Positions 8,965 through 54,045 of a stretch of 64,000 bases of DNA are shown here, one piece after another. The stretch spans positions 30,583-94,582 of IMG/VR virus record IMGVR_UViG_3300036823_000120. One strand, given 5' to 3'. The stretch's first letter is position 1. Each line of letters begins with the position of its first letter. The position numbers and the translations under genes are program-made. The stretch is from a virus. The notes below the pieces were generated by a model, which was given only the letters and a program-made list of their open reading frames with translations, was not told where the DNA came from and made no database searches.

Positions 8965-9708
8965 TCAACTAATCGGCATTTCACAGACTTCGCCTTCACA
9001 AAACTTCGTATCAATTCCGTCTGAGCCACAAAAGCCTGACCAATCAATTTTTTGTATGGCCGCTAATCTAGCTTTGTACTCTTCTTCAGATATACCTTCC
9101 TCTGGCATTTGTTCATATACACCTTTTGGTGTATGAGGTAATAATGAACAAGCTTTAATTAGTGGAGCAAAAGCTGATAAGACTTTTTCAAGAATATCCT
9201 CCTCGTGATTAGGATCAAACTTATAGACTCTCATTTCCGTAGTTTTAGTCCAATAGTTTTCACGGAACGTGACTTTGATTGAATTATTTTCAAAGTCAGC
9301 TTGTCCAGCAGCAATATTGGTCCAAGGATATTCATCTTTAAAGTATTCAATCAATTCTTTGACAAATTGGCCTTCTTTCCTAATATGCATGATAAGCTTC
9401 CACTTAGGCCGGAAATATAGTGTATTAGAAACACTATTATCTGCCCATTCTCTCTGAACTGTGGCAAGATTAACCGCTTGCTCCCAGAGACTTATCGTAT
9501 CTGCTGGAGGCGTTGGTCCTTGAAGAGTGGGATATTCATAAATTAGAGTTCCATTTGGATCAGTTACATCTGGTTCATATGGGATACATGCTTTATCAAG
9601 GATTGGACACATAGGATGGTTACGTGCAACACGAGTGCGACGCAACGTGTAATCGAATGTTGGATAACCAATACCAGCCGTTCTTCCTGCAAGCTTTGGA
9701 GTAGTACC
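8965..9708 (-). CDS. nrdJ: class II ribonucleotide reductase, exon 4 (C-terminal part)
   Basis: Encodes GTTPKLAGRTAG, YTLRRTRV, WADNSVSNTLYF and the C-terminal redox cysteines (FCEGEVCEMP), as in the monomeric adenosylcobalamin-dependent RTPR of Lactobacillus leichmannii (VSCTITF and CEGGACPIK). Exon begins at GGT (9706-9708) directly after the intron's terminal G; the apparent ATG at 9709-9711 is intron. Joined with the other exons (12459-13542, 11460-11799, 10600-10609) it gives 725 codons in frame, against 739 for the L. leichmannii enzyme. Confidence 0.88.
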   Translation of the reverse strand, partial: GTTPKLAGRTAGIGYPTFDYTLRRTRVARNHPMCPILDKACIPYEPDVTDPNGTLIYEYPTLQGPTPPADTISLWEQAVNLATVQREWADNSVSNTLYFRPKWKLIMHIRKEGQFVKELIEYFKDEYPWTNIAAGQADFENNSIKVTFRENYWTKTTEMRVYKFDPNHEEDILEKVLSAFAPLIKACSLLPHTPKGVYEQMPEEGISEEEYKARLAAIQKIDWSGFCGSDGIDTKFCEGEVCEMPIS

Positions 9709-10599
9709 CATTTAATCCCATAATTTTCATTATAGGCTGGACTATATCTTTATCTTTTCTAATTCACTATGACGATATCTAAAACATGAAGCATATTTTT
9801 CTACAAAACGATTATATTTTTTCTTTCCACAAATAGTTAGACGCCAAAAACTTTGGTGTTTTTCTGTAACATCAAACTTATGAATATGTGGATTAATCCA
9901 ATCTTGTTGTAAAATATATTGAGCTTTACAAATAATACTAAAATTAGTATTACATAGTTGAATTATAGGTGAAGTAGTCCAACTATGGTTAGTAAAGCTA
10001 CCTTCTGCTTCATATATTCCAGCTAACCAATCTCGTGAATAAGAGTAAGATACCTCGCGTGTAGTCTCTGAGGATCGCCATTGATTGTGCTTTTCAACAA
10101 TTTCTAATTCTTTGTCGTTATGCAGCGAGTATCTAGTTCTTTGCATTCGACTATTAACAAATTGTTGAAAACATTCTAATCTGACTTTATCACATTCAAT
10201 GAGTGATTTAAAGTAATCTACAAATAAGCTTATAGCTACATTTGAACAAATACTTAAATCATAACAGTCAATTTTACCTGTTCTTATACTTTTAGTTTTA
10301 GAATAGTTAATAAGCTTTTGTTGTAAAATCTTTTCGCAAAGCTCAATAGCAATTTTATTAGTATTAGATATACTAATTTTTGGTTCAAAGAAAAAGCCTA
10401 CATTATTGCCTCTTCTTTGTCTTTCTCTAAAACTAAAAGAACCCTCACCTTCAAAAAAGCCAGAAAACCAATGGATGTCCTGCGGGTTGTCCATTTTTAT
10501 CTCTTGTTTTGTTACTTATAAGTAACAAGAGGTCTTGGAGTTTCACGCATATAGCGAGGAGTACACTAATACATTTCTGTATTAGGCGGCAGTACATTT
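9709..10599 (-). mobile_element. group I intron 3 of the reductase gene
   Basis: 5' splice site follows CCCGGT, with P1 pairing CGGT to GCCG and a T.G wobble at the cut. R element TCAGAGACTACACGCG (10056-10071), S element GATATAGTCC (within 9735-9748), P7 pairing GACTA/TAGTC, terminal G at 9709. 891 nt. R and S are 307 nt apart because half of the endonuclease gene lies between them. Shares P1-P2, Q, R and S sequences with introns 1 and 2. Confidence 0.85.
9742..10494 (-). CDS. LAGLIDADG homing endonuclease in intron 3
   Basis: Two LAGLIDADG motifs: WFSGFFEGEGSF (residues 9-20) and WLAGIYEAEGSF (156-167), the usual pattern of a monomeric two-motif enzyme of 250 aa. Start codon sits in the intron's Q segment (MDNPQ from GGACAACCCGCAGG), residues SSETTRE (141-147) are encoded by the R element, and the TAG stop is part of the S element. 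Cleaves intronless alleles to spread the intron. Confidence 0.9.
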   Translation of the reverse strand: MDNPQDIHWFSGFFEGEGSFSFRERQRRGNNVGFFFEPKISISNTNKIAIELCEKILQQKLINYSKTKSIRTGKIDCYDLSICSNVAISLFVDYFKSLIECDKVRLECFQQFVNSRMQRTRYSLHNDKELEIVEKHNQWRSSETTREVSYSYSRDWLAGIYEAEGSFTNHSWTTSPIIQLCNTNFSIICKAQYILQQDWINPHIHKFDVTEKHQSFWRLTICGKKKYNRFVEKYASCFRYRHSELEKIKI

Positions 10600-10609
10600 A
10601 CCGGGTTTG
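10600..10609 (-). CDS. nrdJ: class II ribonucleotide reductase, exon 3 (10-nt micro-exon)
   Basis: Ten bases, CAAACCCGGT, between introns 2 and 3. Splicing ACCAT to it and then to GGTACT reads T-I-K-P-G-G-T, restoring the conserved TTVKPSGT loop of class II reductases in the correct frame and length. The preceding base is G (end of intron 2), and CGGT forms P1 of intron 3. Deduced from motif reconstruction and splice-site rules; not proven by RNA. Confidence 0.75.
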
Positions 10610-11459
10610 CGACATTATCCAAAAGTTTCGCTTTTGGGTCGGACTATATCACATTCCGCAAAGCATAAAAAATTTCATGCTGTCTTTTAGTATATGGCTC
10701 TTTGATATTTTGAAGCAATCTAAGATTAACAAATTCTTTTAACAAAGAAGATTTTAATTTATACTTTTTTGTTTGGAATTCATTAATAATCTGAAAAAAT
10801 CTTTGTACTCTTTTATAACCATGAATAGTTATTACTTTATATGGACTATGTTTTAGTGGTATATAAGATGATATATGCCAACTAAGTCCTAAAGAATACA
10901 AAGTTTTCACTGTCTTGTCAATAATTTTAGTATTAGTAGAGCATACAGTTATTTCAGGATTATAATTGACTGTATTATTTCTACTCATATGACAAGAAAT
11001 ATGAAAACTACCTTCAGCTTCTAAAATACCAATAAGCCACCAAAAGTCTGCGGAACACTCGCATGTAGTCTCTGAGGACTCAAGATGAAATTGTCGGCAA
11101 TAAAGTTTGGTCTTTAGTTCCTCTAAAAAACACAAACATTTAATTCTACCATTAATGGCTAGATCATATTCTCGTTTTCTTTTTCCTCTTTGAGTCGAAG
11201 AGATTGAAACAGATATACCAAAAGAAGATATTATATCTTCACATTGATGTATTAGATCAATTTCAGTATTACTGATTCGTAATCTATTTTTATCAAAGGA
11301 ACCTTCGCCATCAAGTATGCCAACAAGCCAACTTGTTGCCTGCTGATTATCCATTTTAAGCCTTTATTACATAAGAAGTAGACTTAATTAAAAGAGGATT
11401 TTCCAGCAAATAGCGAGTTTCTCACTAATACATTACTGTATTAGGCCACCAATTTCTTA
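10610..11459 (-). mobile_element. group I intron 2 of the reductase gene
   Basis: 5' splice after ACCAT with P1 CCAT/GTGG, P2 hairpin of CTAATACA/TGTATTAG, R element TCAGAGACTACATGCG (11060-11075), S element GATATAGTCCGACC (10637-10650), then a hairpin CCAAAAG/CTTTTGG and the terminal G at 10610. 850 nt. The endonuclease ORF spans almost the whole intron including R. Confidence 0.85.
10644..11354 (-). CDS. LAGLIDADG homing endonuclease in intron 2
   Basis: 236 aa with motifs WLVGILDGEGSF (residues 9-20) and WLIGILEAEGSF (106-117). Starts MDNQQ in the Q segment, reads through the R element as SSETTCE (93-99) between its two halves, and stops at the TAG of the S element. Each half looks like one single-motif unit. 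Confidence 0.9.
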   Translation of the reverse strand: MDNQQATSWLVGILDGEGSFDKNRLRISNTEIDLIHQCEDIISSFGISVSISSTQRGKRKREYDLAINGRIKCLCFLEELKTKLYCRQFHLESSETTCECSADFWWLIGILEAEGSFHISCHMSRNNTVNYNPEITVCSTNTKIIDKTVKTLYSLGLSWHISSYIPLKHSPYKVITIHGYKRVQRFFQIINEFQTKKYKLKSSLLKEFVNLRLLQNIKEPYTKRQHEIFYALRNVI

Positions 11460-11799
11460 ATGGTTGTCTTACGAATTGCTTCAGGAACACCAGCTTCAGC
11501 ATTTGCTTCTTGATTGATTTTTGTAACTTTCTCATATCCCTTTCTCATATAAGAAGTTACTTTATTCAATCCAACATCATATACCCAACCAGTCCAATCA
11601 ATAATACCAATGCCAATTCTTCGGTTTCTAGCAACAACTCGATTTGTTTCCTCTCTATGAGTAGGAAGTAAGCTTACACTGCTACAATACATTGTAGCAT
11701 ACTCAACTGCTTCATACCATTGTTGGACACCATTACAACGAGTTGGCAAAGTTTCTGAAACGTTGCACAATTCCTTATCTTCGAGTGGAATTTCTCCGC
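11460..11799 (-). CDS. nrdJ: class II ribonucleotide reductase, exon 2
   Basis: 340 nt encoding GEIPLEDKELCNVSE, PTRC, LLPTHREETNRVV and RNRRIGIGI up to RKTTI, the central part of the RTPR catalytic barrel. Joined to exon 1 (CCG T + GC GGA GAA ATT) it gives NPCGEI, the motif with the cysteine that carries the thiyl radical (C408 in L. leichmannii). The unspliced ORF starts at a spurious ATG (11815) in the intron. Confidence 0.88.
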
Positions 11800-12458
11800 C
11801 GCTATTGTTACTCATGCTTAATACATGGGAGTGGTCATTTCTGCCACTCTCTGCATGTTACCATGCAGGCCGGACTATATCATCATCCTTGTAGGATGTC
11901 TCGCGTGTAGTCTCTGAGGTTCCAGATTATCGCTTAAGTTGACGTAACAAATGGTATGTTTGCAAGTCTAAAACTGCATCCATTTGACCATATAGTGTAG
12001 CAAGACGCTTTGTAACATACTCAAATAGAATTGTAGCTTCTTCATTTTTAGCTACGATATATTTGAGTAATATTTTCAAAGCTTTTTCAACACGCATCAC
12101 ACCATTTATTTCAACGCGCTTCGCAGCGCGTTGATTAGAGGCACGAGTTGCATCATAAATATGATATGCTAGTCCTAGCTTTTGCAGGATAAAACATATA
12201 TTTTCTATGATGATTTTATTTGTGTTGACAATTTTAATCCCTACATTGTAGGAACCTTTGCTACCTGGACTCATTGAAAAGCAACCTTCACCATCAAGAA
12301 TACCACTTAACCAACCAAGCTCAAAATCTGTTACCTGCGGATTGTCCATTGCAATATACTTGGGATTTTTGCATTAGAAGCACCCAAGCCTTTAGGTACT
12401 TTCCAGCATATAGCGAGATTGTTCACTGATATATTACTATATCAGGCCGCTAGGATTA
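11800..12458 (-). mobile_element. group I intron 1 of the reductase gene
   Basis: 659 nt. 5' splice after AATCCGT, P1 CCGT/GCGG, P2 CTGATATA/TATATCAG, Q at the start of the endonuclease gene, R at 11902-11917, S at 11868-11881 with a short P8 hairpin ATCCTACAAGGAT between them, terminal G at 11800. Here R and S are only 20 nt apart, the usual compact core. It interrupts the codon of the catalytic cysteine. Confidence 0.87.
11927..12349 (-). CDS. single-motif LAGLIDADG homing endonuclease in intron 1
   Basis: 140 aa with one motif (WLSGILDGEGCF, residues 13-24), so it should act as a homodimer. Starts MDNPQ in the Q segment and stops nine bases before the R element, so the ORF fills the P6-side loop only. 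This is the one-unit counterpart of the two-unit ORFs of introns 2 and 3. Confidence 0.87.
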   Translation of the reverse strand: MDNPQVTDFELGWLSGILDGEGCFSMSPGSKGSYNVGIKIVNTNKIIIENICFILQKLGLAYHIYDATRASNQRAAKRVEINGVMRVEKALKILLKYIVAKNEEATILFEYVTKRLATLYGQMDAVLDLQTYHLLRQLKR

Positions 12459-13542
12459 ACGGATTCAGTCCACTTGCCTTATCTTTTCTAACAGGAATTG
12501 GCTTACCAATTCGCCCAAAAGGAAAGTTTTTCAGGTTCAAGATTCCTGGCTCTCCTCTAACTGTTATACGCTTTGCTACTTCTCCTAACTGTTCAAAGTC
12601 TTCTGGATTATATAGAACCGCTGTATTGTTAGACATCCAGCCCCATTCTTGGCGTTCAGGATTCATGTCATAGTCTTTAAGATTCATAAAAACAGGATCA
12701 TGAATATCGCCCTTCATAAGTTCTGCACTACGTCTAACGTTACCAGCAACGACGCAAACTCCGAGTATATTACCTATGTCTGCTTTTAATCTGACTTCGT
12801 CAATTGATTCAGATTCAAAAAGCATTTCCATATTTTCGTGTAATCTTTTCAAAGGGACTGGGCCAGAAGCTTTTCCGCCAAACCCTTTAATTAGTAGACC
12901 TTCTTCACGAAGTTTGTCGTATTTGAAAATAGGCTTTCGTCTATTTGGCTGAGTATAAGCTTCGACAAGAAGCTTTACACTATCAGCCCAACCTTCTCGT
13001 GAATCTGGAATTTCAAAGATATAAGTTCCAACAGGCTTATATCTAATTAATCCAGTTCGTTTTGGTTCAAATCCAACACCAACACCAAGCATCAAAGCAT
13101 CCATCATCCAATTCAAATCATTGGCGAGAGTATCATTATCGCCCAAAACGCAATATCCGCAATTGTTAAGAGCCATAGAGCCACGTTCATATATGAACGA
13201 TGTACCCATAGCCCATAGACCCCGACCACCAGGAAACCAATGCATATTGAACAAACTGATTGCCATTCTATAGGCATAAGCTTGCCAGTATTCTTCGTCC
13301 CATCTGATATAGTTTCGAGCATAAAAGTCTTTTCTAATCGAGAAAGTTCCATTAATTACCCTTGTTACAACATCAGCCCAATTTTCCTGTCCACCATTTG
13401 TTTTTATGCGACTATATGTCCTAAAGAAAACTAATTCACCATAGCCGTCATAACCAAAATCTGGCTTCATAAGCTGAAGTCTTGAAGCAAAATCAAGACT
13501 TAGTGAGAAGTGTTCATTTACATACTTAGTGGGGACCACCAT
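12459..13542 (-). CDS. nrdJ: class II ribonucleotide reductase, exon 1 (N-terminal part)
   Basis: Encodes RTYSRIK, FPGGRGLWAMGT, NNCGYCVLGD, DALMLGVGVGF, PDSREGWADSV, AGNVRRSAEL and GEPGILNL up to GLNP, in the order found in RTPR. The reductase makes deoxynucleotides from ribonucleoside triphosphates with adenosylcobalamin and works with or without oxygen. GTP-independent details cannot be judged. Overlaps the upstream Tat-signal gene by 17 bases. The last base, T12459, begins the TGC cysteine codon completed in exon 2. Confidence 0.9.
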
Positions 13543-15355: not shown

Positions 15356-15665
15356 TTCTTCTTACCTGAATAATTAAAATAAGCAAATCATCTTTTGATA
15401 CACCAGTGTAATTTCTAATTCCTAGTTGAGCAGCTAAAGCTCGTAGCTGACGAATAGTTTTATCGCAAACTTCATTACGAAGTACATTATCCATCCATTC
15501 TCTGACGTATTCAAGATCAGCATCTTGAATTGCTCGCTCTAAGCGGGGATTATTTGAATCCAATCTCAGACATTGAGTGAATGATACTGAGTGAACTATT
15601 CTCTCTAAAGCTCTAAGATCATTGAATCTCGATCTTATTCGATATTGTACATCAGCTATATTCAT
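15321..15665 (-). CDS. hypothetical protein with SAP/Rho-N-like motif
   Basis: Residues about 75-105 (TIRQLRALAAQLGIRNYTG then VSKDDLLILI) form the two-helix SAP/HeH-type motif found in DNA-binding proteins and Rho N-termini. The rest is helical and unassigned. 114 aa, four-base overlap with the upstream homing endonuclease gene. Confidence 0.6.
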   Translation of the reverse strand: MNIADVQYRIRSRFNDLRALERIVHSVSFTQCLRLDSNNPRLERAIQDADLEYVREWMDNVLRNEVCDKTIRQLRALAAQLGIRNYTGVSKDDLLILIIQVRRNETKSVENNVS

Positions 15666-16114
15666 AGAGTGTTAATGCATGCATATGCTCCAAAGTGCTT
15701 AATAGCAGCTTCGTTATAAGCTTTTGCTGCATCCTCCTCTTTATCAAAGTAACCTAACCTCATAATTTTGTTATTAACAAAAATATAAGAATCCCATTTC
15801 CTATATAATTTGTTATAACTTACTCCTTTATATTTGGAGCTACAGTGTGTTTGTCTTTTAGACTTATTCTTTTCATTGTCGCTTCGTGTTGCAGCTCGCA
15901 AATTAAATTTTTGATTATTTAACTTATTACGATCAATATGATCTATAATTTGAAAATTTAATTTGACTGTTAAAAGCTTATGCATATAGGTATTATCGCC
16001 ATTGTCTCTGGCATACCCATTACATAAGTACCAAGTTCTTAAGGCAAAAAGAAGCCAATCTTCATCATCTACGAGTATAAGCAAATCTGAATTTATTAAG
16101 CTTATTGTCTTCAT
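15662..16114 (-). CDS. AP2-HNH homing endonuclease
   Basis: Central HNH part (IDHIDRNKLNNQKFNLR) followed by an AP2/ERF-like DNA-binding domain (YKGVSYNKLYRKW, RLGYFDKEEDAAKAYNEAA, GAYACIN). 150 aa. Inserted directly after the DNA polymerase gene with a four-base overlap. Paralogous to the genes at 53560-54045 and the broken copy at 37348-37823. Confidence 0.88.
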   Translation of the reverse strand: MKTISLINSDLLILVDDEDWLLFALRTWYLCNGYARDNGDNTYMHKLLTVKLNFQIIDHIDRNKLNNQKFNLRAATRSDNEKNKSKRQTHCSSKYKGVSYNKLYRKWDSYIFVNNKIMRLGYFDKEEDAAKAYNEAAIKHFGAYACINTL

Positions 16115-19715: not shown

Positions 19716-22349
19716 CTAGTTTCTAGAATCACTTGTTACTCCCATTTCATGGGCTTTTGCAGCTTCTTGTTGAGCTTGTTTCATTTCTTCTAGTACCAAA
19801 CCCATACTCAAACTTTGCAAATCACGTTTGCGTTTGAGATTTTTTAATACATAAGCATCAGTTGGAAGATGGAGCAAATCAATTATAGTAGCTCCTCTTT
19901 CTACTGACATACCTGCCCTATGTATGCGATCTTCTGATTGCAATCTAGACTCACCATTGAAATCATTGCTGAAATAAATGATGGCTTTTGATGCCGTCAG
20001 TGTCAGGCCCATTCCCGCTGATCCAGCGTGCCCAACAAAAGCTATCTTTTGATCGTATTGCTTAGGATTCTGAAAGACTTTCAAGAATTCTACGTTATCT
20101 TTTGGCAAGAAGTTACCATATGGCACCCATCCACGTCCGTCCACACGCATCACTTGCCAACCAAGCTTAGTCACATGGTCACTAACTCGATCAATTGTTC
20201 CTGTGAAAGCTCCATAGATAACAATTCTATTCTCATCTTCAAAATCATCTGAGAGAAGTTCTGTAAGAGTATCAAATTTTGGACTATCGACTGTTTTTAC
20301 TTCTCTCTTAATAACATTAGTTGTTCCGCGGCCTTCGCAAGCAGGACACTTAATTTTTTCATTAAGATCGTTATCGAAAAGCTCTCTATTGCCTTTACAA
20401 GTTGTACAAGTTGCAGTAGATTCGACAGTTTCAATATATTGAAAGCCATCTGATAACTCACGAAGCTTTGTAAGAGCTTCAATTGCATTGCGACAACCAA
20501 CTTGTATCAAACTAGCCGCACGAATCATCGGCAGACTTGGCTTTATATTAATTTCTCGATATACCTTATCAGGTAGATCAAGACAATCTTTCTTGTGTTG
20601 AACTAATACAAGTCCACTCATTCGCCGATAAAGTTGACTAATTTCATCTTTCAAAGCTATATATTCATGGAAGTTTTCTTTGTCTTCTTTGGCATAATGA
20701 TTAGCATGAGAACTAAGCTTACCACATTTATTACAGATTGCTTGACCACCATCTCGCCATGCAATGAATTTCGGGAACCGACCACCAGTGATATCACCAA
20801 CGTATTCAGTAACAGCTAATCGTTCCTTGAACTTGTTGACATCACCTTCAATCAAGAAGCCTGGACAAGCAGTTTCACATTGCCAATACCAATCTACAGG
20901 GGACTTGGGAGCGGGAGAACCACTCATAAGTACAATGTATGCATCGTGTCCATAGTTATTACGCATACTTTCAGCAACATGAAAAGCTGATTGTGAGCGT
21001 TGAGCAGTTGGTGTCTTTAATTTTGAAGATTCATCGAATATAATTCCACGAGGTGGCATTTTCCGTGGAATCCAATTTTCAACTGTTTTCTTCAATTCAT
21101 CATAAGTCATAAATATTGGACGTATGAAAGATTTCCAATTCCAAAACTCAAGACGAACACTTGCAATTGATGATTTTGTTCCAATGTACCACCAATCTGC
21201 GATACCACTTCGTTCCATTGCCTCTATTGAGGCAAGAGTCTTTCCACAATTATGTACTACAATACCATTTGCGACAAAATTTCTATAAGGATCATCACAA
21301 ATAACATCATAGACAAATAATTCTCCATTATTTTCAATACTTATAATTTTATCTTTATGTGGTATAAATTGACATTTCTCAGTATGTAGATTTACATAAT
21401 TTGTTTGGCCATGTAATTTTGCATGCTTACTACTTGAACTTAATAGTTCCAAGTTTTCAATTTTATTATCATTTTTAATTTCATTTTTATGATGAACTAT
21501 CTCATTTTCTTTAATATATCGTCCAAGATGTTCTTCCATAATTAAAATGTGTTCATATACTCCACCTGTAGACCATCTTGGATGCTTGTTTTTTAAGCCT
21601 CCAACTCTAATATAGCCATCTTTATCTTTCCATTTACCATTAACTAAAATTTCATCACCAATATTTAGCTTTTCTGCTGAAATATAAGTATTATTATTTA
21701 CAGCAATTTCGTGATCTAAAGTTACACAAATTTCATAACCTAATTTTGTTTTTATTTTTAAAGTAGACTTTTTACCTTTGCTTAAGACATTTTTAATTTT
21801 ATTTAACTTTAATATCCCAGCACAATTACTTCGAATATAAGTTTCTATTCCTAAATCCCAGCATCTGCCTTTTAAATTATGAAATTTCTCAAAAAGATTT
21901 TTTAGTTTTATCTCAAATCCTTTTCCAGCTCTATTTACATGCACGAGTGCTTCACCATCAACGCATCCCATTTCCGCAGCTAGTATACATTGCTTACGTA
22001 GCAAAATATGACCAATCTCATATTTTTGATGCGTATATACAGGTCGTTGAAAAGTTAGCTTATCAACAAATGATTCAAGTGAAGCGTCGTATCGAGAAAA
22101 AGGATTCTTACCTTCTAAGTGTTCAATACGAAATTCATTTCGTCGTGACTTATTAACGCGCCAAACTTTCATTGGATTATCTTCGTCTCTACCAAGCCAT
22201 TTTGAACCTTGCATCACTTTCAATTTATCTTTGAATTCGAAAGCTGAACTAATATAATAATACTTTGAATCTTCATAAATAGTAGCTGGATGACGAAACT
22301 GCTTTCCTTCAAACTTAGTTTGTCTTTCAGCTATAAAATTAATTGCCAT
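19716..22349 (-). CDS. SNF2/DEAD-type helicase interrupted by an intein
   Basis: 877-aa precursor; about 638 aa after removal of the intein (residues 129-367). Extein features: AAEMG-CGKTLASIEA (Walker A split by the intein), IIFDESSKLKTP (motif II), VLMSGSP (motif III), and C-terminal motifs V and VI around GHAGSAGMGLTLTAS and QSEDRIHRAGM. Two Cys pairs (CNKCG; CTTCKGN with CPACEGRG) suggest zinc ribbons. SNF2-like proteins of this size are common phage replication or recombination helicases. Confidence 0.88.
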   Translation of the reverse strand: MAINFIAERQTKFEGKQFRHPATIYEDSKYYYISSAFEFKDKLKVMQGSKWLGRDEDNPMKVWRVNKSRRNEFRIEHLEGKNPFSRYDASLESFVDKLTFQRPVYTHQKYEIGHILLRKQCILAAEMGCVDGEALVHVNRAGKGFEIKLKNLFEKFHNLKGRCWDLGIETYIRSNCAGILKLNKIKNVLSKGKKSTLKIKTKLGYEICVTLDHEIAVNNNTYISAEKLNIGDEILVNGKWKDKDGYIRVGGLKNKHPRWSTGGVYEHILIMEEHLGRYIKENEIVHHKNEIKNDNKIENLELLSSSSKHAKLHGQTNYVNLHTEKCQFIPHKDKIISIENNGELFVYDVICDDPYRNFVANGIVVHNCGKTLASIEAMERSGIADWWYIGTKSSIASVRLEFWNWKSFIRPIFMTYDELKKTVENWIPRKMPPRGIIFDESSKLKTPTAQRSQSAFHVAESMRNNYGHDAYIVLMSGSPAPKSPVDWYWQCETACPGFLIEGDVNKFKERLAVTEYVGDITGGRFPKFIAWRDGGQAICNKCGKLSSHANHYAKEDKENFHEYIALKDEISQLYRRMSGLVLVQHKKDCLDLPDKVYREINIKPSLPMIRAASLIQVGCRNAIEALTKLRELSDGFQYIETVESTATCTTCKGNRELFDNDLNEKIKCPACEGRGTTNVIKREVKTVDSPKFDTLTELLSDDFEDENRIVIYGAFTGTIDRVSDHVTKLGWQVMRVDGRGWVPYGNFLPKDNVEFLKVFQNPKQYDQKIAFVGHAGSAGMGLTLTASKAIIYFSNDFNGESRLQSEDRIHRAGMSVERGATIIDLLHLPTDAYVLKNLKRKRDLQSLSMGLVLEEMKQAQQEAAKAHEMGVTSDSRN
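21249..21965 (-). mobile_element. HNH intein in the helicase Walker A motif
   Basis: 239 residues starting CVDGEALV (splicing block A) with block B around TLDHEIAVN, block F near FVYDVICDD and ending GIVVHN before Cys +1. An HNH endonuclease core is embedded (NEIVHHKNEIKNDNKIENLE). Splicing joins AAEMG to CGKT and restores the P-loop. Both junction cysteines and the terminal His-Asn are intact, so it is probably active. Confidence 0.9.
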
Positions 22350-29849: not shown

Positions 29850-30751
29850 TGTCAGATGATATCCTTGGAATGCTTATGGGCATGAATGATGAAAAGGAAG
29901 TTCGAGAAACTTATCTTAGACTTCCTTTTGGTTATCCAGGTTCAAAAGCTAATGAATTGCACAATATTTTGCCTCACTTACCTTATACAGACAAGTATGC
30001 AGAACCATTTGGTGGCTCTGGAATTGTTCTACTGAATCGAAAACCATCAAAGTTAGAGGTTTTCAATGATAGGTATGCCGGAGTTACTTGCTTCTTCCGG
30101 GTTATCCGAGATCCAATTCTCAGGGAACAGCTTATTGAGCGACTTGCCATTACTCTTCACTCACGAGAAGAGTTCTGTTGGTGTAAGTCAACATGGAAAG
30201 ACCATGCTGATCCTGTTGAGAGAGCGGCAAGATGGTTCTACACAATTAGATATGCGGTCAATAGTAAGCCAACATCAACATTCGGTCGCTCACTCACTGC
30301 CAAGGCGAGTTTTGCACACAAGCTCCCAATTTCACTTGAGCTTTTTCTCCCGGTTTCTGTTCGACTTGAAAGAGTGCAGATCGAGAATTTGGATTGGAGA
30401 TTATGTCTAAGGGACTACGATCAAGAAGGAATGGTTTGGTACTTAGATCCAAGTTATCTTGGTACTCAAGGTAATTATGAATTCGAACTTACTAGAGCCG
30501 ATCATATTGAACTTTGTGATCGTGTACATAATCTTAAAGGTTATGTTGCTTTAAGTGGTTTCGATAATGACTTAACAAATGAGATATATGGACGTTACAA
30601 ATGGAAAGAAGTTTTTGCTTGGAAACGCCAAACTAGAGCTTTGACACAAAGTTTTAGTGACACGAATAATCTTGAAGGTTATGAGGGTGACACGGAACGT
30701 GGTGTGAAATCACATGTCAAAGAGGCTTTATGGTTAAAGGACTTCAAATGA
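29849..30751 (+). CDS. N6-adenine DNA methyltransferase (Dam/D12 class)
   Basis: Motif I variant FGYPGSK and YAEPFGGSGIVLL, EVFNDRY, and catalytic motif WYLDPSYLGT (DPSY in place of DPPY). C-terminal target-recognition region KGYVALSGFDN. 300 aa. Protects phage DNA from restriction or marks it; the recognised site is unknown. Confidence 0.88.
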   Translation: MSDDILGMLMGMNDEKEVRETYLRLPFGYPGSKANELHNILPHLPYTDKYAEPFGGSGIVLLNRKPSKLEVFNDRYAGVTCFFRVIRDPILREQLIERLAITLHSREEFCWCKSTWKDHADPVERAARWFYTIRYAVNSKPTSTFGRSLTAKASFAHKLPISLELFLPVSVRLERVQIENLDWRLCLRDYDQEGMVWYLDPSYLGTQGNYEFELTRADHIELCDRVHNLKGYVALSGFDNDLTNEIYGRYKWKEVFAWKRQTRALTQSFSDTNNLEGYEGDTERGVKSHVKEALWLKDFK

Positions 30752-32226: not shown

Positions 32227-32754
32227 TGCATAGAAAGAATTGATTAGATCAGTAAAATCAGAGGCAGTGACTTCACTTGAAATCCTGCCTCTCCAGTTCC
32301 AACCATAGTTTTGCATTGTACTACAATCAGTTTCCATATTATTAAAAACAGTGTTCAAAAGTATTTGAAATTTTGAGCCACCATCTGGGTCAGCATCGGC
32401 AGCTTTTTGTCCAAGTAAAGCATCTCCAAAGAAATTCAACTCAAACTTCGACCATTGCCAAAACAAATCCCTTAAAGTTTGCATTGAATCAGCATATCCA
32501 GGAGGAGGCCAACTGATTGATTGATGGCCCTGATCACCAGTAACTCCATAGGCTTTACTGACAATAAAAATAATACAAACTTTAGGTCCAAAGAATTGTG
32601 CATGGAATGGTGTAATGCCAGCTAAAGGATTTGTTAATGTTTGTGGAATAAAGCAATAATATTGACTTGGTCTATTACTATTTCTTTCATGATAATAATT
32701 TTCAAGTCCTACTGCAACTTGACTCCACATTTGAGATGTTGAAACTATTGCCAT
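32218..32754 (-). CDS. hypothetical virion-module protein, 178 aa
   Basis: Soluble protein without recognised domain, last in the leftward virion run. Aromatic-rich with WSKFELNFF and WNWRGRISSE. Likely a tail-tip or late protein by position. Confidence 0.55.
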   Translation of the reverse strand: MAIVSTSQMWSQVAVGLENYYHERNSNRPSQYYCFIPQTLTNPLAGITPFHAQFFGPKVCIIFIVSKAYGVTGDQGHQSISWPPPGYADSMQTLRDLFWQWSKFELNFFGDALLGQKAADADPDGGSKFQILLNTVFNNMETDCSTMQNYGWNWRGRISSEVTASDFTDLINSFYASQ

Positions 32755-51736: not shown

Positions 51737-53560
51737 TTACGCAGCAGGCCCACGAGTCTGTGAACCGCCACTAGTTGGATTAGTGTCTGGATTTTGTGAA
51801 TTCTGCTTTTCAATTTTTGATTGAGTAGGATCACCGCCAACGCCTCTAGCAGCACCTACACCAGAACTTTGAGCAGCAGCAATTTGAGCCATACGTTCAG
51901 TGTATTCTTCTTCAGCAATTGGCACAACTGTTTTACCATCATAGCCACGAGCATAAGAAGCTGTTGTTTTATCAACGATGCCTGCTTCAACGTCCATTTG
52001 AATTTCTTTTGCATCACTTGTTATATAACCTGCATCATCTATTTCTTTATCAATTTTAATTAAAACTTCAGCTCGAACCTTACCTGAAAGCATAGTATGA
52101 GCAATCTGTTTACCAATTTCTTTTGCAAAAGTTAAAGATGGTGCTGCCCCTTTAAGGTCTTTAAGAGATTTCGCTTCATTTTGCCTATCCGAGTCACTTT
52201 TAACATCATATTTACGCGGATAATTGACCTCTGCAACTTCTTTTGAATTTTCATACATTGCCCATAATTTAGCGATACGACGTTCGCCATATTCAAGTTC
52301 AAGGCCAATTCCGCTTAGACCATTTTCTAGACCTGACTTATCTTCTTTCTTTGAATCGGCACTTGCATGTTGTGGAGCAACATTCGACATTGCTAAATTA
52401 ATAATTTGACGAAGTTCATCTTTCATTTGAGCTTGCTTTTCCATGCTCGCCATCATTGGAGCACTTGGAGGAGCAATAAAATCAGGAGCATTTAGACCTT
52501 TACCGTATCTTCTACCAGTAATACCACCAGTTTCGACTTCAGAACCACTTGCAGATGTCCCAGCTAAGCTTTGAGTACCTCTTTGAGCAGCATCAAGCTT
52601 TGAGCGGTCAATAAGTGGATTATTTATATCAATTTTAGGTGTTATAGGCACGCGACTGAATGTTTGTTCAGTTAATTGGTCATATTGCTCAACATAAAAT
52701 ACAAAATTAGCTGTTAAAGCATAATTTAAATCAGCAGAAGCTAAATTTAGCAAGCCAATTTGATAATTACCAATATCTTCCATCAAACTTCCACCAATAT
52801 CCATCATAACAAATGGAATTTCAGTGAGATTCAAGTCATATTGATTAATAGACTTAACTTTTTTCTGATCAATTGGATCTTGTTCATTTTCGTCAATATA
52901 TTCGATCCAATCTTCAACTGAAACATAGCCATCTTCATTAATCCAAAAGTGACGATATACTTCATTATAAGCAATTGGAAGATTAGATTCTGGGTCAACT
53001 TCTAAAAGATTAGTGCGAAGAAGTAGATTCGTGAATATTTCATCATTTTCAGCATATCTTGAGTCCCAACTCAAGATATTTTCTCTAGTATAATAATATA
53101 AATAAGGTCTTTTGTTCTTATTTAAATCCAACCGAGGATCATCAATACGACTTTTATCAACAATTACACCAACTTTACCCATAATCATAAGTTCAGTCAA
53201 AACATCTTGACCAATATAAGCATTCATTGAAGAACCATGAAGATCAACACCAGCCGTAAAGCCTGTAATTGCTTCTTGGTAATTGTCAGGACCACCTAAT
53301 CGATTAATTTCGCTCATTCGTTGGTAGATACTGTTTCTTATCTCATTAATAGCTGCACGAGCAAATGATGGCGAATATGCCATTGCTAAGCGTCGTTGAT
53401 AATTTGGATCACTTTCACGAATAGAAAAACGTTGTAAATAACGATGAATGAAAGCATCACCAGAGTTATAGCAAAGTCGCCACTTGTAAAAATCATCAAA
53501 CTCCAGACAATAATCCGGATGTCTTATCTCTGTTATAAGTCTTTTCTTTTTCTTTGCCAT
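51737..53560 (-). CDS. portal protein
   Basis: 607 aa. Core of DUF4055-like portal: YLQRFSIRESDPNYQRR, SPSFARAAINEIRNSIYQR, DVLTELMIMGKVGVIVDKSR, IPFVMMDIGGSLMEDIGNYQIGLL and a disordered C-terminal tail. Located after the terminase gene with a homing gene in between. Confidence 0.85.
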   Translation of the reverse strand: MAKKKKRLITEIRHPDYCLEFDDFYKWRLCYNSGDAFIHRYLQRFSIRESDPNYQRRLAMAYSPSFARAAINEIRNSIYQRMSEINRLGGPDNYQEAITGFTAGVDLHGSSMNAYIGQDVLTELMIMGKVGVIVDKSRIDDPRLDLNKNKRPYLYYYTRENILSWDSRYAENDEIFTNLLLRTNLLEVDPESNLPIAYNEVYRHFWINEDGYVSVEDWIEYIDENEQDPIDQKKVKSINQYDLNLTEIPFVMMDIGGSLMEDIGNYQIGLLNLASADLNYALTANFVFYVEQYDQLTEQTFSRVPITPKIDINNPLIDRSKLDAAQRGTQSLAGTSASGSEVETGGITGRRYGKGLNAPDFIAPPSAPMMASMEKQAQMKDELRQIINLAMSNVAPQHASADSKKEDKSGLENGLSGIGLELEYGERRIAKLWAMYENSKEVAEVNYPRKYDVKSDSDRQNEAKSLKDLKGAAPSLTFAKEIGKQIAHTMLSGKVRAEVLIKIDKEIDDAGYITSDAKEIQMDVEAGIVDKTTASYARGYDGKTVVPIAEEEYTERMAQIAAAQSSGVGAARGVGGDPTQSKIEKQNSQNPDTNPTSGGSQTRGPAA

Positions 53561-54045
53561 TAGTGTACCTCATTGAGGCAAGCAAACGCCCCGTGATACT
53601 TAATTGCTGCCTCATTGTACGCTAAAGCTGCTTGCTTTTCATCTTCAAAGTTTCCAATGAAGATTTCTTTACGATTTAAGACAATTTTAGCACGAAATTT
53701 GTCTTTAATCCTATCGAAGTAGACTCCTTTGTATTGGCTACTACCAATTACAAGCTTTCTACTATTCATAGAGTTTTGACTGTTAGTCGCAACTCTAAGG
53801 TTTGCTCGTTGACTATCAAGCTTATCGCCATCAATATGATCCACTTTTAAATTTTGATCAAAATTGAGTCTCTTTGCAATAATAAGATGCAATGTTTCTC
53901 TATGTTTTGTAAGAGAATAGATTCTACTACTCTCATATACATAACTATCTTTTGGATTCAAATACCAAGTAGCAAAAAGTAAGAGATCAGAATCTTCATC
54001 ACTTATGAAGAATTCATATCTATTTGTTGTCTTACCAATTTTCAT
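53560..54045 (-). CDS. AP2-HNH homing endonuclease
   Basis: 161 aa. HNH part LKVDHIDGDKLDSQRANLR and AP2 part YKGVYFDRIKDKFRAKIVL, FIGNFEDEKQAALAYNEAA. Sits between portal and terminase genes, overlapping the portal start by one base. Confidence 0.87.
   Translation of the reverse strand: MKIGKTTNRYEFFISDEDSDLLLFATWYLNPKDSYVYESSRIYSLTKHRETLHLIIAKRLNFDQNLKVDHIDGDKLDSQRANLRVATNSQNSMNSRKLVIGSSQYKGVYFDRIKDKFRAKIVLNRKEIFIGNFEDEKQAALAYNEAAIKYHGAFACLNEVH

Follow-up and report, generated by a model that had tools for sequence, protein, structure and literature searches.

We analyzed a 64,000-nucleotide (nt) stretch of viral DNA (positions 30,583 to 94,582 of IMG/VR virus record IMGVR_UViG_3300036823_000120, a metagenome assembly of 94,582 bases; hereafter, the window) and found that its minus strand carries, from position 13542 to 8965, a phage gene for a monomeric class II ribonucleotide reductase (RNR), the B12-dependent, RTPR-like NrdJ enzyme, in the form of four exons and three group I introns. 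Judging from the sequence, it is very probable that this gene is split by three mobile group I introns and that the 10 nt lying between the second and the third are a true exon that enters the mRNA. In the order of transcription, exon 1 (12459-13542, 1084 nt) is followed by intron 1 (11800-12458, 659 nt), exon 2 (11460-11799, 340 nt), intron 2 (10610-11459, 850 nt), the micro-exon 3 (CAAACCCGGT, 10600-10609, 10 nt), intron 3 (9709-10599, 891 nt) and exon 4 (8965-9708, 744 nt including the stop codon). Joining the exons restores 725 codons plus a stop (726 codons in all) in a single frame. Exon 1, which matches the Pfam families RNR_Alpha and RNR-II_ins_dom, ends in AATCCG T, the final T being the first base of the catalytic cysteine codon, which intron 1 thus splits (NP-T/GC). 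Exon 2 runs from GC GGA GAA ATT to ACC AT, and exon 4 from GGT ACT to a segment that includes CEGEVC, the C-terminal cysteine pair. The TT[VI]KPSGT loop holds introns 2 and 3, whose insertion sites are separated by 10 nt, and the predicted exon 2-3-4 joint in the mRNA reads GACAACCAT-CAAACCCGGT-GGTACTACT.

The spliced product is colinear with the Lactobacillus leichmannii RTPR (PDB 1L1L; E 3.6e-64), with the alignment continuing through the joints, and all residues expected from this enzyme are present: C128, N360-P361-C362-G-E364, C373 and the C-terminal CxxxxC (CEGEVC). Indeed, the catalytic Cys, Asn and Glu of NPCxE, the redox cysteine pair, the C-terminal cysteine pair and the insertion domain, together with the colinearity with 1L1L, identify it as a monomeric class II RNR. 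We then compared it to 83 intronless phage loci spanning the exon 2-3-4 stretch. N360, P361, C362 and E364, at the joint of exons 1 and 2, were invariant across the 83 homologues, and T473, K476, P477 and G479, encoded by exons 2, 3 and 4, were each conserved in at least 82 of them (TTIKPGGT in the product versus TTVKPSGT in the homologues). Five phage homologues aligned without any insertion or deletion at the exon joints. The homologues are distant, the closest in the alignment (L012) sharing 44% identity. At the DNA level, only four short matches to the locus were found, each covering 1% of the query, and no match was obtained with the spliced protein as a single query against IMG/VR or with a short query of the KPGGT residues against the phage collection. 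A preliminary description of this DNA had proposed three group I introns, 725 codons in frame, NPCGEI at the exon 1-2 joint and TTIKPGGT across exons 2, 3 and 4; its coordinates were verified, and the colinearity with RTPR and the phage homologues, as well as the conservation at the joints, is in good agreement with it. It had also suggested a search with a group I covariance model. The Rfam model RF00028 matched all three introns on the strand of the gene, with scores below the gathering score. These matches were significant for intron 1 (48.6 bits, E 2e-10), where the strong part is the 3' part, and for the 3' part of intron 3 (40.6 bits, E 5e-8); the 5' half of intron 3 scored weakly (21.4 bits).

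All three introns share a common layout, consisting of a P1 guide, CC, a P2 hairpin, P3 (CUCGC/GCGAG), P4, P5, P6, P7 (GACUA/UAGUC), P8, P9 and a terminal G, with an additional P9.1 in intron 1. The core helices P3 and P7, the latter with its R and S elements, are identical in the three introns, and P2, P5, P6, P8 and P9 differ in sequence from one intron to the next while their pairing is retained; introns 1 and 3 have an imperfect P4. Each 5' splice site carries a U.G pair within P1 (CCGU/GCGG, CCAU/GUGG and CGGU/GCCG in introns 1, 2 and 3), and the register is the same in all three cases, a 4-nt guide, CC and then the P2 hairpin. Minimum-energy folds of the intron 5' ends placed P1 and P2 exactly at the predicted 5' sites (CCGUUA/UAGCGG, CCAUUAA/UUGGUGG and CGGUA/UGCCG). 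The last intron base is a G at 11800, 10610 and 9709, respectively, and P10 pairings with the 3' exon amount to 3, 3 and 5 base pairs, that of intron 1 being offset by two and that of intron 3 being GGUAC/GUACU.

The predicted 10-nt exon rests on four agreeing lines of evidence: reading frame, homology, the terminal G of the intron and the P1 and P10 guide pairings. Since exon 2 leaves its last codon one base short and exon 4 starts with a full codon, the length of exon 3 must be a multiple of three plus one, and homology requires K-P ahead of G-T, which exon 3 provides. The guide of intron 2 (11446-11452) pairs through GUGG (11449-11446) with CCAU of exon 2 and through UUG (11452-11450) with CAA of exon 3 (10609-10607) as P10, and the guide of intron 3, GCCG (10587-10590), pairs with CGGU of exon 3 (10603-10600) as P1. 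The exon is thus divided into CAA for intron 2, a free ACC and CGGU for intron 3; as the P10 and P1 segments are separate and no base is used by both, the two ribozymes can share the exon without common bases. Furthermore, of all T-ended 4-mers in the upstream 120 nt, CGGT at the end of exon 3 is the only one able to pair with the intron 3 guide, and the 3' site chosen for intron 3 has the best P10 among the 18 G's scanned. What makes the exon convincing is, along with these guides, its position, flanked on one side by the P9 hairpin of intron 2 and on the other by the P1-P2 hairpins of intron 3. Both the 10-nt exon at 10600-10609 and its double role, as the 3' target of one ribozyme and the P1 strand of the next, had been put forward in the preliminary description, and both withstood this analysis. 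A repeat-driven assembly chimera is unlikely because the longest identical run shared among the three introns is at most 20 bases.

If introns 2 and 3 left instead as one unit, as a twintron or by exon skipping, exon 2 would be joined to exon 4 (GACAACCAT-GGTACT) and the 10 nt would be lost. Exon skipping by group I introns has been documented for Twort orf142 and a SIOphi gene (PMC11878797), and an exon-skipped RNA could arise here as a minor product. As the sole outcome, however, we consider it very unlikely: the frame would shift after TTM and reach a stop at codon 523, which would cost the protein its K-P-x-G loop and C-terminal cysteines, the end of exon 2 does not pair with the intron 3 guide, and the start of exon 4 does not extend the pairing of the intron 2 guide as a P10.

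The exact length of the exon deserves closer attention. Because ATTAAG at the border of exon 2 and intron 2 duplicates codons and exon 3 starts with CAAACCC, with AAA before CCC, there are five cut positions yielding the same residues, and an exon of 6, 7, 8, 9 or 10 nt would leave the protein unchanged. Additionally, a second U.G pair adjoins the first in the P1 of intron 2 (CCAUU/GGUGG), consistent with splice sites shifted within this duplication. Nevertheless, among the lengths that protein homology alone permits (6 to 10 nt), only the 10-nt solution lets exon 2 end in U and, at the same time, intron 2 end in G, and the P10 pairing CAA/UUG begins precisely at the first base of the 10-nt exon. 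A real exon of 6 to 9 nt is for these reasons even less likely than its loss by skipping.

Several observations weigh against the reading with a 10-nt exon. Homology alone fails to fix its position, since an equally good filler was present in 36 of 200 dinucleotide shuffles of the 1.75-kb interval. The RF00028 score of intron 2 was weak (22.7 bits), and we infer that the low Rfam scores stem from the long nuclease inserts. No relative carrying introns at the same sites was recovered: searches for RTPR genes with an S motif directly before KPSGT codons or SGT codons gave 3 and 0 matches, respectively, and all 3 were false. In addition, residue 478, encoded by the last codon of the micro-exon (GGT), is a glycine, where 82 of the 83 homologues have serine and one has threonine. 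The conserved, non-defining loop P-[ST]-G-[TS] consequently reads P-G-G-T in the product, and no choice of cuts near the predicted sites yields Ser or Thr at this position. The preliminary description had named the codons between TTI and GGT in intronless homologues as the place where the exon could fail; there, the Lys and Pro codons match in at least 82 of the 83 homologues, whereas the third does not. Finally, compared to its closest relative, L012, the window protein alone is altered in 11 of 147 near-invariant columns, and 5 of these 11 changes, at residues 478, 481, 482, 489 and 492 (minus strand, 9667-9708 and 10600-10602), lie at or just past the intron 3 site. A Fisher test gave 9e-5 for this cluster, with the region chosen post hoc, and a permutation corrected for scanning, in which any stretch was allowed, reached it in 45 of 5000 cases.

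These odd residues around the intron 3 site and the weak model score of intron 2 could also be accommodated if the gene were decaying and the locus no longer efficiently spliced, introns 2 and 3 being remnants. Yet every exon frame is open, the catalytic cysteines and the N and E residues are intact, and so are the three nuclease frames and the ribozyme cores, which makes decay the least likely of the three alternatives. Returning to a gene with a genuine micro-exon, a plausible source of the 478-492 cluster is co-conversion of the flanking exon during homing. For residue 478 itself, the first G of the codon (10602) pairs with a C of the intron 3 guide and AGT would lose this pair; a sequencing error at 10602 is unlikely because the changed base is engaged in this pairing. 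The replacement of Ser by Gly may thus possibly be a change favoring the guide pairing.

Each intron contains an open reading frame (ORF) for a LAGLIDADG homing endonuclease on the minus strand, and all three ORFs scored above the cut-off of Pfam LAGLIDADG_3. The intron 1 ORF (11927-12349, 140 amino acids) has a single LAGLIDADG motif and lies within P6. In contrast, the ORFs of intron 2 (10644-11354, 236 amino acids) and intron 3 (9742-10494, 250 amino acids) have two LAGLIDADG lobes, each with its own stretch matching phrog_5046, and extend through the ribozyme core. Both begin within P5'-P4' with an ATGGAYAAYC(C/A)GCAG-like start and place the first lobe in P6. The segment comprising the R element, the 5' strand of P7 and P3' (intron 2, CCTCAGAGACTACATGCGAG, 11058-11077; intron 3, CCTCAGAGACTACACGCGAG, 10054-10073; minus strand) doubles as code for the linker between the lobes, SSETTCE in intron 2 and SSETTRE in intron 3, the R element CCTCAGAGACTACA itself being translated as SSETT. 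Both ORFs end at the TAG of GATATAGTCC, in P7'. With the linker in R, P7 and P3' and the stop in P7', the second lobe must sit in the P8 loop, and the P8 stem is indeed closed across it (UUCCGCA/UGCGGAA in intron 2 and UAUCUU/AAGAUA in intron 3). The two nucleases align with each other over both lobes (28%, E 3e-19). A tree of the nuclease lobes gave no resolution on a possible descent of intron 3 from intron 2. An AlphaFold (AF2) model of the intron 3 nuclease, of low confidence (pLDDT 50) and thus informative on topology only, showed two helix-strand-strand repeats.

The overlap of a nuclease ORF with an intron core is in itself a known phenomenon (PMC3984707). In relatives from IMG/VR, phage group I introns with MDNQQ...SSETTRE ORFs (L005, L095, L099, L102 and others), the ORFs likewise start at P5'/P4' and often read the R motif as SSETTRE, but they have a single LAGLIDADG motif and end soon after R, without a second lobe in P8. 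A search of IMG/VR for the two-lobed form, in which another LAGLIDADG motif comes after the R motif, gave 9 matches, all due to chance; this absence is only suggestive because the search demanded the exact R motif. When the genome collection was searched with the two-lobed nucleases, two Chloroflexi loci from metagenome-assembled genomes with two-motif ORFs came up as candidates and were rejected, as they lack the SSETT linker. Separately, one of the IMG/VR phage gene regions (L005, 5062-7314) has two adjacent introns with nucleases of this same MDNQ-type family. Outside this locus, the 94.6-kb record yielded no further intron of the same type.

We propose that three mobile group I introns invaded the RNR gene at its most conserved active-site codons, each spread by its LAGLIDADG homing endonuclease gene. 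Each intron would fold its own ribozyme and leave by the standard two-step guanosine reaction. CAA of exon 3 would pair with the intron 2 guide as P10 in the second step of intron 2 splicing, and CGGU of exon 3 with the intron 3 guide as P1 in the first step of intron 3 splicing. Splicing is probably stepwise, so that once one intron has left, the remaining one would meet long exons on both sides. Because the nuclease frames of introns 2 and 3 cover most of the ribozyme core, from P5' to P7', a given RNA should either be spliced or yield nuclease, and this predicted link of splicing to translation can be tested.

Small exons between self-splicing introns are known from other systems. In the mitochondrial genes of fungi and protists, self-splicing introns regularly enclose exons of fewer than about 4 codons (PMC10352661); these exons resemble the exon described here in size and flanking introns and differ in belonging to organelle genes. 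In placozoan mitochondrial cox1, a single nucleotide even forms an exon between two group I introns (PMC5436844), also smaller than one guide pairing, although that exon is mitochondrial and proven by RNA-seq, while the present one belongs to a phage gene and is predicted. The closest parallel in phages is nrdE of Bacillus phage phiNIT1, where nanopore sequencing after self-splicing revealed a small exon that separates two group I introns (PMC11878797). By homology we place this exon, of about 60 nt, probably at about 32270-32332 of the phiNIT1 locus (L104; RQGSGAAYLNIFHRDISDFLD), where the record carries no annotation for it. As in our case, it is a phage gene for an RNR large subunit with an adjacent pair of group I introns and a short exon between them, but the enzyme is class Ib rather than class II and the exon is about 60 nt long instead of 10. 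Several group I introns per gene have also been reported in Twort nrdE and orf142 (Landthaler and Shub 1999; Landthaler et al. 2002, as related in PMC4853749 and PMC3653736); going by these later accounts, Twort likewise has several introns within a single phage gene, inserted at conserved RNR residues, with an HNH nuclease in nrdE where the present introns have LAGLIDADG. The literature searched, which did not include the classic Twort papers or subscription papers, yielded no phage exon this small (10 nt). The preliminary description had called such micro-exons very unusual; this holds for phages but, given the mitochondrial mini-exons, the 1-nt placozoan exon and the phiNIT1 exon, not in general.

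We advance more tentatively, as a combination with somewhat less than an even chance of holding, that among the genes of phages and prokaryotes this might be the smallest exon yet described, with its bases divided between two ribozymes (3 nt of P10, a 3-nt spacer and 4 nt of P1), that the two-lobed P6/P8 nucleases, with the catalytic core encoding their linker, might render splicing and translation mutually exclusive, and that the last codon might have changed from Ser to Gly in favor of the guide. The locus offers a natural minimal case for asking how short an exon can be and still serve two group I ribozymes, and whether these act in a fixed order. It also raises the puzzle of how two mobile introns came to lie 10 base pairs apart, when homing into either site would be expected to erase the intron at the other. 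Such exons escape standard phage annotation, which would list the present RNR as three broken ORFs, and because it cannot find them, similar genes may be hidden in metagenomes.

Other signs of mobile elements were observed elsewhere on the minus strand of the window. A DNA helicase ORF (19716-22349) contains, just before the Walker A lysine, an insert with HNH endonuclease matches and intein-like ends (EMG-CVDGEAL ... IVVHN-CGKT). There are also two ORFs resembling HNH-type homing endonucleases, one adjoining the DNA polymerase gene (15662-16114), for which the assignment was confirmed, and one between terminase- and portal-like genes (53560-54045).

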